Of a stretch of 64,000 nt of DNA, positions 4,072 through 11,508 are shown piece by piece. This DNA is from Natrinema salaciae (GTDB lineage: Archaea > Halobacteriota > Halobacteria > Halobacteriales > Natrialbaceae): the NCBI RefSeq assembly GCF_900110865.1, contig NZ_FOFD01000008.1, forward strand, positions 124,001 through 188,000, given 5' to 3'. The stretch's first letter is position 1, and the number at the start of each line of letters is the position of its first letter. Made by a program: the position numbers and the translations under genes. The notes under the pieces were generated by a model, which saw only the letters and a list, made by a program, of their open reading frames with translations, did not search any database and was not told the DNA's origin.

Positions 4072-5238
4072 ATGCAAGAGGAGAACGTGTCAGCCGTCGT
4101 CCTCGCGGCCGGCGAGGGACGCCGGCTCGAGCCGCTGACCAATCGGCGGCCCAAGCCGATGGTTCCCGTCTCGAACCGCCCGATACTCGAGTACGTCGTC
4201 TCGGCGATCGCGGATGCGGGTCTCGAGCGGATCGTCCTGGTCGTCGGCTATCAGCAAGAGCGGATTCGGAACTACTTCGGCGATGGCGACGACTGGGGGA
4301 TCGACATCGAGTACGTCGTCCAGGAGAACCAGCTCGGCACGGCGCACGCGATCGCGCAGGCCGAGTCGGCCGTCACGGGATCGTTCCTGGTTCTGAACGG
4401 CGACCGCCTCGTCGAGGCGTCGCTCGTCGAGCAGGTCCGGGACGAGGTCGGGACCAGCGACGGGCCGGTGATGGCGGTGACACGATCGGATCACGCAAGC
4501 GACTACGGGGTCGTTTCGATGGACGGCGAGCGCGTAACCGAAATCAGCGAGAAACCGCGGGAGCCGATCACGTCGGAAGTGATCAACGCCGGCGTCTACG
4601 GGTTCGACGAATCGGTCTTCGACGCGATCCGGGCGACGCCGACCGAGGGCGGCGAACTGGCGATCACGGCGACGCTCGAGCGGATCGCCGAGAAACGATC
4701 GATTCGAGCCGTCCGCTACCGCGGCCTCTGGCAGGACGTCTCGCACCTCTGGGACTTGCTCGAGATCAACGCGGCAGTGATCGACGAAGTCGACGAGGAC
4801 GACTCGACGCTCCATCACGATGCCGTCGCAAGCGATACCGCGATCGGGGACGACGTAACGCTCGGTCGGAACGCGACGATCGGCGGCGGAACGGCCATCG
4901 GCGACAACGTGACGATCGAAGCCAACGCCGTGCTCTCGAACGCGGTCGTCTTCTCGGACGCGGTCATCGAAGCCGGTGCCGTCGTTCGCGACGCGATCGT
5001 CGCCGGCAACGCGCGGATCGGCGCGAACGCGACGATCGCGGGCGGATCGACCACGGTCGTCGTCGAGGGTGAAGTCCACGAGGACGTCGATCTCGGCGGT
5101 GTCGTCGGCGACAACGCGACCGTCGGCAGCGGCGTCACCGCCGCGCCCGGGACCGTCGTCGGCGACGGCGCGACCGTCGATCACGGCGTGAGCGTCGACG
5201 GACGGATCGAACCCGACGCGATCGTCAGGAGGGGATAA
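4072..5238 (+). CDS. glmU: Bifunctional sugar-1-phosphate nucleotidylyltransferase/acetyltransferase (GlmU-type)
   Basis: A 388-residue protein of two parts. Residues 1-235 are a nucleotidyltransferase: LAAGEGRRLEPLTNRRPKPMVP is the signature with the PK lysine, and NGDRL and NAGVYGF segments follow. Residues 245-388 are a left-handed beta-helix made of hexapeptide repeats (IGDDVTLGRNATIGGGTAIGDN and so on), the acetyltransferase half. Known archaeal enzymes of this type acetylate glucosamine-1-phosphate and couple it to UTP, giving UDP-GlcNAc. The gene directly downstream is glmS, one base away, which supplies glucosamine-6-phosphate, so substrate identity is well supported by context. Product is cytosolic and would feed the N-glycan pathway. 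Confidence 0.88.
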   Translation: MQEENVSAVVLAAGEGRRLEPLTNRRPKPMVPVSNRPILEYVVSAIADAGLERIVLVVGYQQERIRNYFGDGDDWGIDIEYVVQENQLGTAHAIAQAESAVTGSFLVLNGDRLVEASLVEQVRDEVGTSDGPVMAVTRSDHASDYGVVSMDGERVTEISEKPREPITSEVINAGVYGFDESVFDAIRATPTEGGELAITATLERIAEKRSIRAVRYRGLWQDVSHLWDLLEINAAVIDEVDEDDSTLHHDAVASDTAIGDDVTLGRNATIGGGTAIGDNVTIEANAVLSNAVVFSDAVIEAGAVVRDAIVAGNARIGANATIAGGSTTVVVEGEVHEDVDLGGVVGDNATVGSGVTAAPGTVVGDGATVDHGVSVDGRIEPDAIVRRG

Positions 5239-5239
5239 C

Positions 5240-7045
5240 ATGTGTGGAATCGTCGGCTACGTCGGCGGCGAACCCGCCGGTCCGATCGTCTACAGCGGCC
5301 TCGAGAACCTCGACTATCGCGGCTACGACTCCGCCGGGGTCGCGCTCGTGGAACAGGATCTCACGATCGCGAAGCGCGCGGGCGAAGTGAGCGAACTGGA
5401 CGTTCCCGACGTCCCGGGAGCCACCTGCGGGATCGGTCACACCCGCTGGTCGACACACGGGCCGCCGACGGACGAAAACGCGCATCCGCACACCGGGCAA
5501 GCCGATGACGTCGCGGTGGTCCACAACGGCATCGTCGAGAACTACGACGCGATCAAAGCCGAGTTGACCGACGCGGGTCACGTGTTCTCGAGCGAGACGG
5601 ATACGGAAGTCATCCCACACCTCTTGGAGCGGGAACTCGAGAGCGGTCACGATCTGCTCTCCGGGCTCGAACGCGTCGTCGACAGGCTCGAGGGGAGCTA
5701 CGCGATCGCCGCGGTGCGTGCGGGAAGCGATCGGATCGTCGCGACGCGCCACGAGAGCCCGCTGGTCGTCGGCCACGGTGACGGCGAGTCGTTCCTCGCG
5801 AGCGACGTCACGGCGTTTCTCGACCGGACGCGCGACGTGACGTATCTCGAGGACGGCGACGTCGTCTCGCTCGAGGGCGGGTCCGCGACGGTCTACCGCG
5901 ACGGCGACGTCGTCGATCGCGACGTCGAGACCGTCGAGTGGGACGCCGACGCGGCGGAGAAGGGCGGCTACGAGCACTACATGCGCAAGGAGATCCACGA
6001 ACAGCCCACGTCCCTCCGGCAGACGCTCTCGGGACGGATCGACGTCGAACGCGGCGACGCCGACCTCGACGTGGCGTTCCCGCAGGGCTACCTCGAGTCG
6101 CTCCAGGAGATCCAGCTCGTCGCCTGCGGGACGTCCTACTACGCGAGTCAGTACGCGGCGCGATTGCTCGAGGAGTTCGCCGACGTTCGCGCGACGGTGG
6201 AGATCGCCAGCGAGTACTCCTTCGACGGCGGCCGGGATCCCTGGCGGACGCTCGTCATCGCCGTGACCCAGAGCGGCGAGACGGCGGACACCCTCGGTGC
6301 GATTCGTCGCGCTGGCGGGGCGGGGGCTCGAACGCTCGCGGTGACGAACACGCTCGGGAGTTCGGTAACGCGCGAGACCGAAGACTCGGTGTTCATCCGC
6401 GCCGGCCCGGAGATCGGGGTCGCGGCGACCAAGACGTTCGCCTCGCAGGTGACGACGCTCGCGCTGTTAGCGGTCGAAATCGGCCGACAGCGCGGTTCGC
6501 TCGCAGCCACCGACGCCCGAGCGGTGCTCGAGGACCTCCGGGGGTTGCCGGGGGCCGTCCAGCAAGTGCTCGACGAGGAGGATCGCGTGCTCGAGGGGGC
6601 CAAACGGTTCGCCGACGCCGATGCCTTCTTCTTCGTGGGTCGGCAGTTCGGCTATCCGGTCGCGCTCGAAGGCGCGCTGAAGCTCAAGGAGATCGCCTAC
6701 GATCACGCGGAGGGGTTCGCCGCGGGAGAGCTGAAACACGGTCCGCTGGCGCTGATCACCGGGGACACGCCGGTCCTGTCGGTGCTGACGGAGCGTTCGC
6801 GTCCGGACGAAACGCTGAACAACGTCACGGAAGCGCAGACGCGCGAGGCACCGGCGATCGGGGTCACGGACGGGACCGTCGAGACGGACTCGCTCGACCT
6901 CGAACTCGAGGTGCCCGACCTCGGATACGTGACGCCGCTCGTCGCGAACGTCTACTTCCAGCTGTTTGCCTATCACATCGCGGACCTGCAGGGGCGGTCG
7001 ATCGACAAGCCGCGAAACCTCGCGAAGAGCGTTACTGTCGAGTGA
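5240..7045 (+). CDS. glmS: Glutamine-fructose-6-phosphate aminotransferase (isomerizing)
   Basis: A 601-residue full-length GlmS. The protein begins MCGIVGYVG with the catalytic N-terminal Cys2 of class II glutamine amidotransferases; GHTRWSTHG and HNGIVENY follow. Two SIS domains come next (VACGTSYYASQYAARLLEE, TQSGETADTLGAI, then FFVGRQFGYPVALEGALKLKEIAYDHAEGF), and the end DKPRNLAKSVTVE is the conserved tail that closes the active site. It makes glucosamine-6-phosphate from fructose-6-phosphate and glutamine. A strong Shine-Dalgarno (AGGAGGGG, 5227-5234) lies inside the end of glmU, five bases before the ATG, so the two genes form one translation-coupled unit. Confidence 0.96.
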   Translation: MCGIVGYVGGEPAGPIVYSGLENLDYRGYDSAGVALVEQDLTIAKRAGEVSELDVPDVPGATCGIGHTRWSTHGPPTDENAHPHTGQADDVAVVHNGIVENYDAIKAELTDAGHVFSSETDTEVIPHLLERELESGHDLLSGLERVVDRLEGSYAIAAVRAGSDRIVATRHESPLVVGHGDGESFLASDVTAFLDRTRDVTYLEDGDVVSLEGGSATVYRDGDVVDRDVETVEWDADAAEKGGYEHYMRKEIHEQPTSLRQTLSGRIDVERGDADLDVAFPQGYLESLQEIQLVACGTSYYASQYAARLLEEFADVRATVEIASEYSFDGGRDPWRTLVIAVTQSGETADTLGAIRRAGGAGARTLAVTNTLGSSVTRETEDSVFIRAGPEIGVAATKTFASQVTTLALLAVEIGRQRGSLAATDARAVLEDLRGLPGAVQQVLDEEDRVLEGAKRFADADAFFFVGRQFGYPVALEGALKLKEIAYDHAEGFAAGELKHGPLALITGDTPVLSVLTERSRPDETLNNVTEAQTREAPAIGVTDGTVETDSLDLELEVPDLGYVTPLVANVYFQLFAYHIADLQGRSIDKPRNLAKSVTVE

Positions 7046-7064: not shown

Positions 7065-7193
7065 CTAGTCGTCCGTTCGGTGGTCGGCGAGGTGCTCCCA
7101 GATTTCGGTACACCCGCAGCCGTCGTCGACGCTCGAGAGATGGTCTCGGTCCCGCTCTTCCTCGTCGTCCGGCGCGTCTCGCTCGTTTGTCAT
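7065..7193 (-). CDS. 42-residue acidic micro-protein with Cys-Gly-Cys motif
   Basis: A short reading frame on the minus strand, starting at the ATG read leftward from 7193 and ending with TAG at 7065-7067. It encodes an acidic, hydrophilic leader followed by DDGCGCTEIWEHLADHR. From memory, small haloarchaeal proteins ending in a GCGCTEIWEHL-like block recur in many genomes, so I treat this as a real conserved gene of unknown function. The two cysteines could bind metal. It has its own AT-rich promoter and shares an operator-like palindrome with the sulfoquinovose synthase-like gene on the other side of the intergenic region. Confidence 0.68.
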   Translation of the reverse strand: MTNERDAPDDEEERDRDHLSSVDDGCGCTEIWEHLADHRTDD

Positions 7194-7194
7194 G

Positions 7195-7213
7195 GTACTC
7201 ACTTTCTGAGTAA
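7195..7213 (-). promoter_or_regulatory. Operator-like palindrome before the 42-residue gene
   Basis: On the minus strand this reads TTACTCAG AAA GTGAGTAC, an imperfect inverted repeat with a three-base centre, ending one base before the ATG. A TATA-like CTTAATTAGG lies about 32-38 bases before the start (7225-7231). The same repeat occurs in perfect form before the gene starting at 7447, which argues for a shared DNA-binding regulator. Confidence 0.6.
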
Positions 7214-7412
7214 CTCCGACCACCTAATTAAGTCCTTCGGCAATTTGGTAGGATAGTTGACAAATACGGCCCCGCAAACAGGATATTACGCGGGTGTAAC
7301 GGACGGAACTCGTGGCCTTCTCGAACGGTTCGCGTGAGCGAGAGCGATTCGAACCGCTGGCCGTTCGACCGTCGTTCGCGTCGCGACGACCAATCAGCGA
7401 TCAACGATAACA

Positions 7413-7420
7413 CTTATATC
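7413..7420 (+). promoter_or_regulatory. TATA box of the sulfoquinovose synthase-like gene
   Basis: CTTATATC lies 27-34 bases before the ATG at 7447, the spacing expected for a leaderless haloarchaeal transcript starting at or next to the start codon. Confidence 0.65.
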
Positions 7421-7425
7421 TCTAC

Positions 7426-7444
7426 TTACTCAGTATCTGAGTAA
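7426..7444 (+). promoter_or_regulatory. Perfect operator-like palindrome before the sulfoquinovose synthase-like gene
   Basis: TTACTCAG TAT CTGAGTAA: eight-base arms are perfectly complementary around a three-base centre. It sits between the TATA box and the start codon, two bases before the ATG, a classical repressor position. An imperfect copy lies at the same relative place before the divergent 42-residue gene. Confidence 0.68.
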
Positions 7445-7446
7445 CT

Positions 7447-8622
7447 ATGACCGTACTCGTAACGGGAGCGGACGGCTACATCGGCTGGCCGACGGCACTT
7501 CGAATCGCGAACCGAACGACCGACCGAGTCGTCCTCGTGGACAACTTCGCCAGACGGGAGTGGGTCGAATCCGTCGGCTCGACGAGCGCCGTTCCAGTCA
7601 CCGACATCGACGACCGGATCGCCGCCGCCGAGTCGGTCCACGGCCTCACCAACCTGTCGTTCGTGCAGGGCGATCTCACGGACAAGGCGACCGTCGACCG
7701 CCTGCTGTCGATCCACGAACCGGAGACGATCGTCCACACGGCTGCACAGCCGTCGGCACCGTACTCCCAGATCAACGGCGAGCGGGCGAACTACACCCAG
7801 CACAACAACCTCCAGGCGACCCGCAACCTGCTGTGGGGGCTCGAGGAACAGGGCCTGACGGACACGCACTTCATCGAGACGACGACGACCGGCGTCTACG
7901 GCGCGCCCGAGTTCCCGATCCCGGAAGGGGGCGCGACGATGGAGAACCAGGGCGAGCGCGACGAGGTACCGTTCCCCGCGATGGCCGGCTCGTGGTACCA
8001 CCTCACCAAGAGCCACGACGCGGCGAACATGCGCCTGGCGCACAAACAGTTCGACATTCCGGTCTCGGACGTCCGGACCGCGATCACGTACGGGACCGAG
8101 ACCGAGGAGACGGCCGCGGACCCGCGGCTGGCGACTCGCTTCGACTTCGACTACTACTTCGGGGTCGTCGCTCACCGCTTCTGCGCACAGGCCGTCGCCG
8201 GCTACCCGATGACCGTCTACGGGCGGGGCGAACAGCGCAAACCATTCATCGCGCTCGAGGACGCCGTCGAGGGACTGGCGCAGCTAGCCGTCTCCGATCC
8301 CGACGCGAGACCCGACGACTACACCGTCTACAATCAGGTGACGCGAGCGATCAGCATCGTGGAAATCGCGGAGACGATCGCCGGCGTCTCCGACGAGTTC
8401 GATCTCGACGTCGACGTCGAACACTTCGAGAACCCGCGCGAGGAGGACGAAACCCACAAGATGGAGATCGAGAACGACCGCTACGCGGCCCTGATCGACG
8501 GCCAGTCGACCACGTTCGAACAGGGCGTCCGAGAGATCCTCGGGACGCTGGTCGACTACCGGGAGACGGTCGAATCGCACGAGGATCGGTTCCTCCCCGG
8601 CGTGCTGACGGAGGACGAGTAG
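7447..8622 (+). CDS. UDP-sulfoquinovose synthase-like NAD-dependent epimerase/dehydratase (SqdB/Agl3 type)
   Basis: A 391-residue short-chain dehydrogenase of the SQD1/SqdB subtype. The NAD-binding GADGYIG is at residues 7-13; DNFARREW, APYSQINGERANYTQHNN, ETTTTGVYGAPEFPIPEGG and SWYHLTKSHDAANM line up with the plant and bacterial enzymes, including the catalytic Thr and the YxxxK pair. In that family the enzyme joins sulfite to UDP-glucose to give UDP-sulfoquinovose; in Sulfolobus the homologue Agl3 supplies sulfoquinovose for N-glycans. Placement in a glycosylation island with two other epimerases suggests the same role here. It begins a plus-strand run whose next gene starts one base after its stop. 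Confidence 0.85.
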   Translation: MTVLVTGADGYIGWPTALRIANRTTDRVVLVDNFARREWVESVGSTSAVPVTDIDDRIAAAESVHGLTNLSFVQGDLTDKATVDRLLSIHEPETIVHTAAQPSAPYSQINGERANYTQHNNLQATRNLLWGLEEQGLTDTHFIETTTTGVYGAPEFPIPEGGATMENQGERDEVPFPAMAGSWYHLTKSHDAANMRLAHKQFDIPVSDVRTAITYGTETEETAADPRLATRFDFDYYFGVVAHRFCAQAVAGYPMTVYGRGEQRKPFIALEDAVEGLAQLAVSDPDARPDDYTVYNQVTRAISIVEIAETIAGVSDEFDLDVDVEHFENPREEDETHKMEIENDRYAALIDGQSTTFEQGVREILGTLVDYRETVESHEDRFLPGVLTEDE

Positions 8623-8623
8623 C

Positions 8624-9577
8624 ATGCGCGTCCTCGTGACCGGCGGATGCGGGTACATCGGTAGCGAACTCGTTCCGCTGTTGCTCGAGGACGACCGGGT
8701 CGACGACGTCGTCGTCCTCGATTCGCTCGCGTCCGGTTCCCCCGCGAACCTCCGCGGGTGTATCGACGACCGACTGGACTTCCGCCGCGGCGACGTCCGC
8801 GAGTACGGCGACGTCGAGAGCGCGATGCGCGGCGTCGACCGCGTCGTCCACCTGGCGGCGATTACGGGCGCGGCCTCGACGCACGACCGCCGCGAGGAGA
8901 CGTTCGCGGTCAATCGCCACGGGACGGAGAACGTGCTCACCGCCGCCGGGAAACTCGGTGTCGACTCCCTCGTGTTCGCGTCCTCGTGTAACAACTACGG
9001 GCGCGCCGCCAGTACGAACATCGACGAAGAGACCGAACAGGACCCGCTCAACCCCTACGCAGAATCGAAAGTCGAGTCCGAGCGGTTGCTCGCCGACGCG
9101 ATGGACGACTACGGCATCGACGGCACCGCGCTGCGGATGAGCACGAACTACGGCTGGGCACCGGGTATCCGGTTCAATCTGGTCGTGAACCACTTCGTCT
9201 TCCGCGGGCTGACCGATCGGCCGCTGACGGTCTACGGCGACGGCAACAACTGGCGGCCGTTCATCCACGTCGCGGATGCGGCGCGGGCGTACGCCCACGC
9301 CGCCCTCGAGCCCGAGTCGTGGCCGCAGCTGGTCTACAACGTCGGGTCGAACGACGGGAACTATCGGATCTCGGAGATCGCCGAAATCGTCCGCGACGAA
9401 CTCGAGCGCGACCTCGACATCACGTACCTCGAGGACGAACACCCCGGCCCGTCCTACCACGTGAACTTCGATCGACTGGCCGAGACCGGATTCGAACCCG
9501 AGTGGACGCTCCGCCGGGGCGTCCGCGAACTCGCGGATCAGTTGCGGCGAAATCGAACCGAGGTCGTCGAAGCATGA
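8624..9577 (+). CDS. NAD-dependent sugar-nucleotide epimerase/dehydratase
   Basis: A 317-residue extended short-chain dehydrogenase. The N-terminal Rossmann motif GGCGYIGS is at residues 7-14. SSCNNYG and the catalytic YAESK (YxxxK) follow, and the C-terminal substrate-binding half has RPFIHVADAARAYAHA. Length and motifs fit the GalE/UDP-glucose 4-epimerase group, but the exact sugar cannot be told from sequence. One base separates it from the SqdB-like gene and its stop overlaps the start of the next epimerase (ATGA), so the three enzymes are almost certainly co-expressed and probably act on nucleotide sugars for the same glycan. Confidence 0.83.
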   Translation: MRVLVTGGCGYIGSELVPLLLEDDRVDDVVVLDSLASGSPANLRGCIDDRLDFRRGDVREYGDVESAMRGVDRVVHLAAITGAASTHDRREETFAVNRHGTENVLTAAGKLGVDSLVFASSCNNYGRAASTNIDEETEQDPLNPYAESKVESERLLADAMDDYGIDGTALRMSTNYGWAPGIRFNLVVNHFVFRGLTDRPLTVYGDGNNWRPFIHVADAARAYAHAALEPESWPQLVYNVGSNDGNYRISEIAEIVRDELERDLDITYLEDEHPGPSYHVNFDRLAETGFEPEWTLRRGVRELADQLRRNRTEVVEA

Positions 9578-10563
9578 GCGACTCCGAGACTGCTCCCGAC
9601 GAGCCCACGATCGCGATCACCGGTGCGGCCGGCTACATCGGCAGCCGCGTCGTCCAGCAACTCGAGGCGGCCCACCCCGAGTGGAAGCTGACCGCGCTCG
9701 ACAACCAGTTCCTCGGGCAGGTCGACGCCGTCGGCGAGACGGAGATCGCCCACGTCGACGTCCGAAACCGACGGCGACTCGAGGACTGTCTCGAGGGCGC
9801 GGACGTCGTGCTCCACCTGGCGGCGGTCAGCGGCGTCGACGACTGCGACGAGAATCCGGATCTGACCTACGACGTCAACGTCACGGGGACGAACAACGTC
9901 GCCTGGTTCTGCCGAAAGACCGGCGCAGCGATGGCGTTTCCGTTCAGTATGGCCGTTCTCGGCGATCCCGAGACGTTCCCGATCACTGCGGACCTCCCGC
10001 GGGATCCGTTCAACTGGTACGGCCGGACGAAGTACATAAGCGAGCGGGCCATCGAGTCGTTCGCCGAGGGGGCGTTCCCCGCCCACCTGTTCCTGAAGTC
10101 GAACCTCTACGGCGACCACGTCGTCGGCGACACGGTCGTCTCGAAACCCACCGTCATCAATTTCTTCGTCGACCGTGCGACGGCCGGCGAGCCGCTGACG
10201 GTGTACGAACCGGGGACGCAGTCCCGAAACTTCGTTCACGTCAAAGACGTCGCCAGATCCTACGTCCGGAGCACGGAACGGCTGCTCGAGCAGCTGGCCG
10301 ACGGCGACACGGGCACCGAGACCTACGAGATCGCGGGCAACGAAGACCCGTCGGTGATGTCGGTCGCGGAGACGGTACAGGAACTCGCCCGCGACGAACT
10401 CGGCGTCTCGGTCGATGTCGAACTCGTCGAGAACCCCCGAAGCGCCGAAACGATGGTCGAGGACTTCACGGTCGATACCTCGAAAGCGAACGAGATACTC
10501 GGTTGGGAGGCGCGCCACACGGTCGACGAGTCGGTGCGGGAACTGCTCCGGCGGAACGCCTAA
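9574..10563 (+). CDS. Second NAD-dependent sugar-nucleotide epimerase/dehydratase
   Basis: A 329-residue protein; the start is the ATG that overlaps the preceding stop. It has GAAGYIGSRVV near residue 17, VLHLAAVSGVDDC, the catalytic segment NWYGRTKYISER (YxxxK) and RNFVHVKDVARSYV. The serine/threonine position usually reading SSxxVYG is FSMAVLGD, so it differs from classical UDP-glucose 4-epimerase and may catalyse a different epimerisation or dehydration. It is the third of three co-directional epimerase genes in the island. Closest described relatives would be UDP-glucuronate or GDP-mannose type enzymes; I cannot choose among them. Confidence 0.8.
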   Translation: MSDSETAPDEPTIAITGAAGYIGSRVVQQLEAAHPEWKLTALDNQFLGQVDAVGETEIAHVDVRNRRRLEDCLEGADVVLHLAAVSGVDDCDENPDLTYDVNVTGTNNVAWFCRKTGAAMAFPFSMAVLGDPETFPITADLPRDPFNWYGRTKYISERAIESFAEGAFPAHLFLKSNLYGDHVVGDTVVSKPTVINFFVDRATAGEPLTVYEPGTQSRNFVHVKDVARSYVRSTERLLEQLADGDTGTETYEIAGNEDPSVMSVAETVQELARDELGVSVDVELVENPRSAETMVEDFTVDTSKANEILGWEARHTVDESVRELLRRNA

Positions 10564-10650: not shown

Positions 10651-11508
10651 ATGGGTACGCGAACCGGTTCGACGGAACTGCTCCAGCGATTGGACCTGAA
10701 GGAGTACGAAGCCACGGCCCTCGCCCACCTGCTGAGCGCCGGCCGGACGACCGCGCCGAACGTCTCCGAGGCGACCGGTATCCCCAAAGCGCGGGTGTAC
10801 GGCGTTCTCGACTCGCTCTCCGAGTACGGCTTCATCAAGGTGATCCCCGGCCGTCCGAAACAGTACCAGCCGAAATCGCCCGCGGAAATCCTCGAGCGCG
10901 CGAAAGAGAACCGGCGACAGCAGTACGAGGACTACTGCAACGCGGTCGACGGCCTGGAAGAGGAGTTCATCGCGGAGTTCGGGCCGCGCTACGAGCAGGC
11001 CGACGAGGAAGTGTCACCGATGTCCGAACTGTTTTCGGTCGTCGACGTCGGCGAGCCGAGCGAGACGGAGACCAGACAGCTCTACCAGAACGCGTCGGAC
11101 CGGGTCTTCGTCATCACGAACAGCTTCGCGTACTTCGACGACGTCGAACCGGCCGTCGACGATGCGCTCGAGCGCGACCTCGAGATCTCGGTGCTGTTCC
11201 TCGATCCGCGGGCGCTTCCCGAGGAAAAGGCGACGGTACAGGCGGAGATCGTCGACCGAATCGCGAGCGAGTATCCCGCGATCGACTACCGATTCAGCGA
11301 AACGGTGCTACCCTGGCGTGGCACCTTCATCGACCCGAGCATGGAGTACGATTCGGGGAAGGCAATCTTCCTCGTCGAGGAGACCGACGTGCCCGATTAC
11401 CGGCGACAGGCCGCGATCACGGAGAACGGCTCGTTCGTCGCCGGCATGAAACGGTACTTCGACCTGATCTGGGAGTACGAGAGCCTCGAGACGCCGCAGT
11501 CGGCGTGA
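10651..11508 (+). CDS. TrmB-family transcriptional regulator
   Basis: A 285-residue protein. The N-terminal 80 residues are a TrmB winged helix-turn-helix: LQRLDLKEYEATALAHLLSAGRTTAPNVSEATGIPKARVYGVLDSL, followed by GRPKQYQPKSPAEILERAKE and a predicted coiled helix. The C-terminal part (residues 115-280) is a ligand-sensing domain with VFVITNSFAYFDDVEPAVDDALERDLEISVLFLDP. TrmB proteins sense sugars or metabolites and repress or activate sugar genes in archaea. It follows the three epimerase genes after 87 bases and could control this island, including through the palindromes near 7200 and 7435, but that link is inference. Confidence 0.85.
   Translation: MGTRTGSTELLQRLDLKEYEATALAHLLSAGRTTAPNVSEATGIPKARVYGVLDSLSEYGFIKVIPGRPKQYQPKSPAEILERAKENRRQQYEDYCNAVDGLEEEFIAEFGPRYEQADEEVSPMSELFSVVDVGEPSETETRQLYQNASDRVFVITNSFAYFDDVEPAVDDALERDLEISVLFLDPRALPEEKATVQAEIVDRIASEYPAIDYRFSETVLPWRGTFIDPSMEYDSGKAIFLVEETDVPDYRRQAAITENGSFVAGMKRYFDLIWEYESLETPQSA

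Follow-up and report, generated by a model that had tools for sequence, protein, structure and literature searches.

A palindrome at haloarchaeal sqdB and micro-protein promoters as the probable operator of a local TrmB-family regulator

The sqdB locus and its two palindromes

The window, by which we mean the whole 64-kb stretch of DNA analysed here, carries a three-gene operon headed by an SqdB-like gene, a divergent gene for a micro-protein, a TrmB-family regulator gene, and glmU- and glmS-like genes at 4072-7045. The features used below are:

7065-7193, minus strand: 42-residue acidic micro-protein, family core HLxxxxDGxGCxEIWExLSExR
7195-7213: candidate operator O2 of the micro-protein gene, minus-strand sequence TTACTCAGAAAGTGAGTAC at 7213-7195, from the sequence and copies in relatives
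7223-7232, minus strand: putative TATA-like box CTTAATTAGG of the micro-protein promoter, from the sequence
7405-7419, plus strand: BRE/TATA region of the sqdB promoter, from the sequence and TATA-like columns in a 70-promoter profile
7426-7444, no strand assigned: candidate operator O1 of the sqdB operon, TTACTCAGTATCTGAGTAA, conserved in place in 70 of 81 promoters
7447-8622, plus strand: SqdB-like UDP-sulfoquinovose synthase (phmmer 1e-70 to SQD1)
8624-9577, plus strand: NAD-dependent sugar epimerase/dehydratase 1 (epi1), second gene of the conserved operon
9574-10563, plus strand: NAD-dependent sugar epimerase/dehydratase 2 (epi2), third gene of the operon
10651-11508, plus strand: TrmB-family regulator (PF01978, 3.8e-19), co-occurring with the element and predicted to bind O1 and O2

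An earlier note on this DNA had described one palindrome in each of the two diverging promoters, and on re-reading the sequence both lie exactly where it placed them. O1 is indeed a perfect palindrome, with two bases between its end and the sqdB ATG at 7447, while a single base separates O2 from the ATG of the 42-residue gene (7193-7065, minus strand). The full elements span 7425-7445, with the consensus GTTACTCA-N5-TGAGTAAC, and 7194-7214. Each palindrome has a TATA-like box on one side and the start codon on the other, as the note had said; the box of the sqdB promoter is CTTATAT (7413-7419, plus strand). From the usual TATA-to-start distance, transcription is predicted to start near 7440 for sqdB, within O1, and near 7202 for the micro-protein gene, within O2.

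The pattern is rare. Allowing up to 3 mismatches, the window holds 2 matches where 0.03 are expected by chance, a number reached in 0 of 100 shuffles. In the 4.86-Mb genome O1 and O2 are the sole copies with at most 2 mismatches, and only one additional match appears at 3 mismatches, so that a genome scan confines the motif to these two promoters rather than scattering it at random.

The SqdB-like protein aligns with plant SQD1 over 343 residues and keeps the positions of Thr145, Tyr182 and Lys186, given as the SQD1 catalytic residues in PMC4388408; it thus has both the SQD1 homology and the Thr/Tyr-xxx-Lys active site of a UDP-sulfoquinovose synthase. Its score against NF041015, the UDP-sulfoquinovose synthase model, is 352 bits, below the cut-off of 575; PMC4388408 describes the haloarchaeal enzymes as a distant cluster, separate from SQD1 and Agl3. 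The start of epi2 overlaps the stop codon of epi1.

The TrmB gene lies 3.2 kb from the palindromes, as the earlier note had it. Its product has the PF01978 winged-helix domain (68.7 bits, cut-off 25.6), and combines a wHTH, a coiled coil and a PLD-like C-terminal domain (structure model with pLDDT 80, pTM 0.50). The sugar-binding domain PF11495 gave no Pfam match at 1e-3, and against NF047392, the model of the haloarchaeal global TrmB, the protein scores 42 bits where the cut-off is 500. The orthologue of that global regulator (VNG1451C) is encoded separately in this genome (C2:15140, 606 bits); the window TrmB differs from the global sugar TrmB.

Conservation of the element before sqdB

Orthologues of sqdB are scattered across the order. 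In a promoter set made up of the window's sqdB and 80 loci from named haloarchaea, 70 of 81 promoters carry GTTACTCA-N5-TGAGTAAC downstream of the TATA box and over the predicted transcription start, the first base of the element falling 20-25 bp before the ATG. In the profile of these 70 promoters both arms are near-invariant and the centre is variable, and some 10-22 bases further upstream comes an A-rich and then TATA-like block. Across the order, the motif is retained ahead of orthologous genes, clearly unlike the random, non-conserved occurrence that the earlier note had named as counting against its claim. Among 392 genomes the exact motif core is found in 94, compared with about 1 for a reversed control pattern.

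A second set of 20 flanked loci, partly overlapping the first set, has the element in 12 (0-3 mismatches), its start falling 20-23 bp ahead of the ATG. Most of the loci without it come from a clade within the window's genus, where another box, TGCTATCGTTCGGATCACTATCTGGTAGCATC, is conserved just before the sqdB ATG (L068, L069, L072-L074; also L037 and L043). Most sqdB genes bearing this box are without TrmB, and another regulator may bind there. At two loci (L175 and L200), about 2.2 kb past the sqdB start, weak operator-like sites with 2-3 mismatches also overlap the epi2 start; these may be a chance product of Met-Ser-Asn/Asp codons.

Co-occurrence of element and regulator

Scoring TrmB orthologues at E <1e-50 and sqdB at E <1e-120 gives 134 and 159 positive genomes out of 392. 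In the 156 scorable sqdB-positive genomes, those with the TrmB orthologue have the operator in 131 cases and lack it in 0, while those without the orthologue have it in 2 and lack it in 23 (the operator was in part scored by genome rather than promoter by promoter). The association has a Fisher value of 1.5e-25, which overstates independence because lineages share history. Counted by genera, 42 have both TrmB and operator and 10 have neither; five genera hold both TrmB-positive and TrmB-negative genomes, and the operator tracks TrmB in nearly all of them. A genome's TrmB orthologue is thus an almost perfect predictor of the operator. The orthologue is present in 92 of the 94 exact-motif genomes, and wherever we read the promoters of TrmB-positive genomes that lack the exact motif, every one had a version with 1-3 mismatches in the right place. 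The association persists in Haloarcula, even though trmB there is far from sqdB.

The exceptions are few. Among TrmB-negative genomes whose promoters were read, only G178 and G359 have the operator. In G359 a stop-broken trmB remnant adjoins sqdB; in G178 the operator precedes sqdB yet no TrmB orthologue is detectable, making it the sole unexplained exception. One genome (G340) has one extra sqdB copy without operator, and another (G015) keeps trmB beside an epi2 fragment while the sqdB it has shows another promoter type and no operator, an arrangement that looks as it might after loss of the original operon. In G016 (contig C55, 53126-57253) both an additional sqdB and a trmB copy are broken, as if a complete second cluster were in decay.

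The earlier note had guessed at one regulator shared by both promoters, with the TrmB encoded at 10651 as the candidate, and the co-occurrence and the conservation together lend this guess strong comparative support.

Other operator copies and the micro-protein family

Nearly every second operator copy lies where a micro-protein gene begins, an arrangement seen in about 20 relatives. Many of these genes have their start codon inside the right arm of the operator (NNNNNATGAGTAAC); at several loci (L143, L157, L158, L161, L162, L170, L176, L177, L180) ATGAGTAAC is a half site and the codons for Met-Ser-Asn at once. In Haloarcula-type genomes an operator copy separates trmB from a micro-protein gene that diverges from it, and in Natribaculum a copy precedes glmU. 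These locations suggest a likely regulon of sqdB-epi1-epi2, the micro-protein gene, often trmB and sometimes glmU-glmS. Membership of the other genomic TACT-N7-8-GAGTA sites in the same regulon found no support, most of those inspected being intragenic or shorter-spaced. A TACT-N8-GAGTA site also lies upstream of a phosphoenolpyruvate carboxykinase (pckA)-like gene (L014, G000:C2:217407-217423), plausibly as a target of the global TrmB.

The micro-protein itself had been described by its Cys-Gly-Cys motif, which is present in the window protein but does not hold as a family trait: relatives have D-G-x-G-C, and only the second cysteine is invariant. Searches of Pfam and NCBIfam for known micro-protein and zinc-finger families gave no match, and the structure model is a low-confidence helix pair (pLDDT 70, pTM 0.36) that offers no functional clue. 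Specificity for sqdB is rejected, since the family occurs in 358 of 392 genomes and is near-universal in haloarchaea; what goes with sqdB is an extra copy, at least two copies being found in 131 of 159 sqdB-positive genomes versus 23 of 233 genomes without sqdB. In several genomes whose sqdB is without operator, the micro-protein remains beside it.

In 10 of the 11 genomes surveyed, a NirA-type nitrite/sulfite reductase gene is found some 0.7-1.2 kb away from the general copy; the present genome is the one without such a gene nearby. In one genome (G045) the general copy also adjoins PAPS-reductase-like and siroheme genes. The block around this copy is conserved (L313-L319, L321-L323) and comprises the NirA-type reductase, DUF6360, DUF7119 and a Cys-containing protein of some 100-120 residues that has no annotation. 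The NirA neighbourhood hints at sulfite handling, an attractive guess because UDP-sulfoquinovose synthase uses sulfite (PMC4388408), but the substrate of the neighbouring reductase could be nitrite instead. It is a tentative and rather doubtful idea that the micro-protein is a sulfite-handling factor, the near-universal copy serving the NirA-type reductase and the TrmB-controlled copy serving SqdB. In that case the single invariant cysteine might pass sulfite to SqdB, and the TrmB operator would turn the sulfosugar enzyme on and off along with its supply of sulfur.

Discussion

Genome comparison strongly supports the palindrome pair as real, conserved operators with a cognate TrmB-family regulator, and the TrmB-operator arrangement is kept in most haloarchaea that have sqdB genes. 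Very probably, O1 and O2 are operators of the local regulator encoded at 10651-11508, which would repress sqdB-epi1-epi2 and the micro-protein gene. A TrmB dimer would bind GTTACTCA-N5-TGAGTAAC downstream of the TATA box and over the transcription start, and so block recruitment or start of RNA polymerase, which would make it a repressor of the operon and of the divergent micro-protein gene, and possibly of trmB itself via the same gene run. A ligand of the C-terminal PLD-like domain would probably release it from DNA. The comparisons lead us to infer that TrmB binds the sites directly, acts as a repressor, may control its own gene, and has a sugar nucleotide or a sulfur-related compound as its ligand; repression is preferred to activation on the position of the sites; haloarchaeal TrmB sites downstream of the promoter repress (PMC4158304).

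Both sites, being TACT-N8-GAGTA, fit the published haloarchaeal TrmB motif TACT-N7-8-GAGTA (PMC4158304). This match, together with the clear VNG1451C orthologue in the genome, would also suit a reading in which the genome-wide sugar-sensing TrmB binds the operators and the operon is one more gluconeogenesis-linked target. We regard this as improbable: the operator tracks the local paralogue, sqdB in genomes lacking that paralogue is generally without operator, the 15 ChIP peaks of the Haloarcula hispanica global TrmB list no sqdB or sugar-epimerase gene (PMC10817205), and most other TACTC...GAGTA palindromes in this genome are spaced one base shorter. The likeness of the DNA-reading helices of the two paralogues (IPKARVYGVL in the window TrmB, IPQPRVYDTV in the global one) may explain why their half sites are similar.

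Co-occurrence differs from binding, and G178 has the element without trmB, so a different, unlinked regulator might recognise the element while TrmB merely travels with the cluster. That seems just as improbable, given that the operator follows TrmB in nearly all of the five genera of mixed state, that in genomes with trmB unlinked from sqdB the element is also found between the micro-protein gene and trmB, and that the motif is of the type bound by TrmB proteins. Action of the palindrome in RNA, as a leader hairpin or in translation control, or a role as a mere start-site element, we find hardly credible. The palindrome does abut or overlap start codons, and ATGAGTAAC encodes Met-Ser-Asn in many micro-protein genes, but the arms are conserved in sequence without covariation, the centre varies, and a transcript begun at the predicted start, within the element, would be missing one arm.

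Haloarchaeal sulfosugar synthesis thereby gains a well-defined candidate operator and a named candidate regulator; a TrmB paralogue without detectable sugar-binding domain becomes a probable local regulator, and a near-universal, unannotated haloarchaeal micro-protein is tied to possible sulfite chemistry. Our literature search found no paper linking a TrmB-type regulator to sqdB. The same three-gene operon, SqdB with two GalE homologues, was noted in Haloquadratum walsbyi in 2006, in a description whose available text mentions no operator, regulator or micro-protein (PMC1544339). Plant SQD1 and Sulfolobus Agl3 are UDP-sulfoquinovose synthases like the window SqdB, and the available text on them mentions no TrmB-like regulator of this kind (PMC4388408).

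The TrmB of Halobacterium salinarum and Haloarcula hispanica (VNG1451C, HAH_1548) shares its DNA-binding domain and motif with the window TrmB but is a global gluconeogenesis regulator with a sugar-binding domain. The best solved-structure match of the window TrmB, in sequence and in modelled fold, is TrmBL2 of Thermococcales. TrmBL2 is described as an abundant chromatin protein and global repressor, whereas a few specific operators are predicted for the window TrmB. The TrmB of Pyrococcus furiosus and Thermococcus litoralis is likewise a local repressor and binds a TACT...AGTA palindrome close to the core promoter (PMC4158304); it differs in the TACT-N3-AGTA spacing, in acting on maltose/trehalose transport genes and in having a sugar-binding domain.
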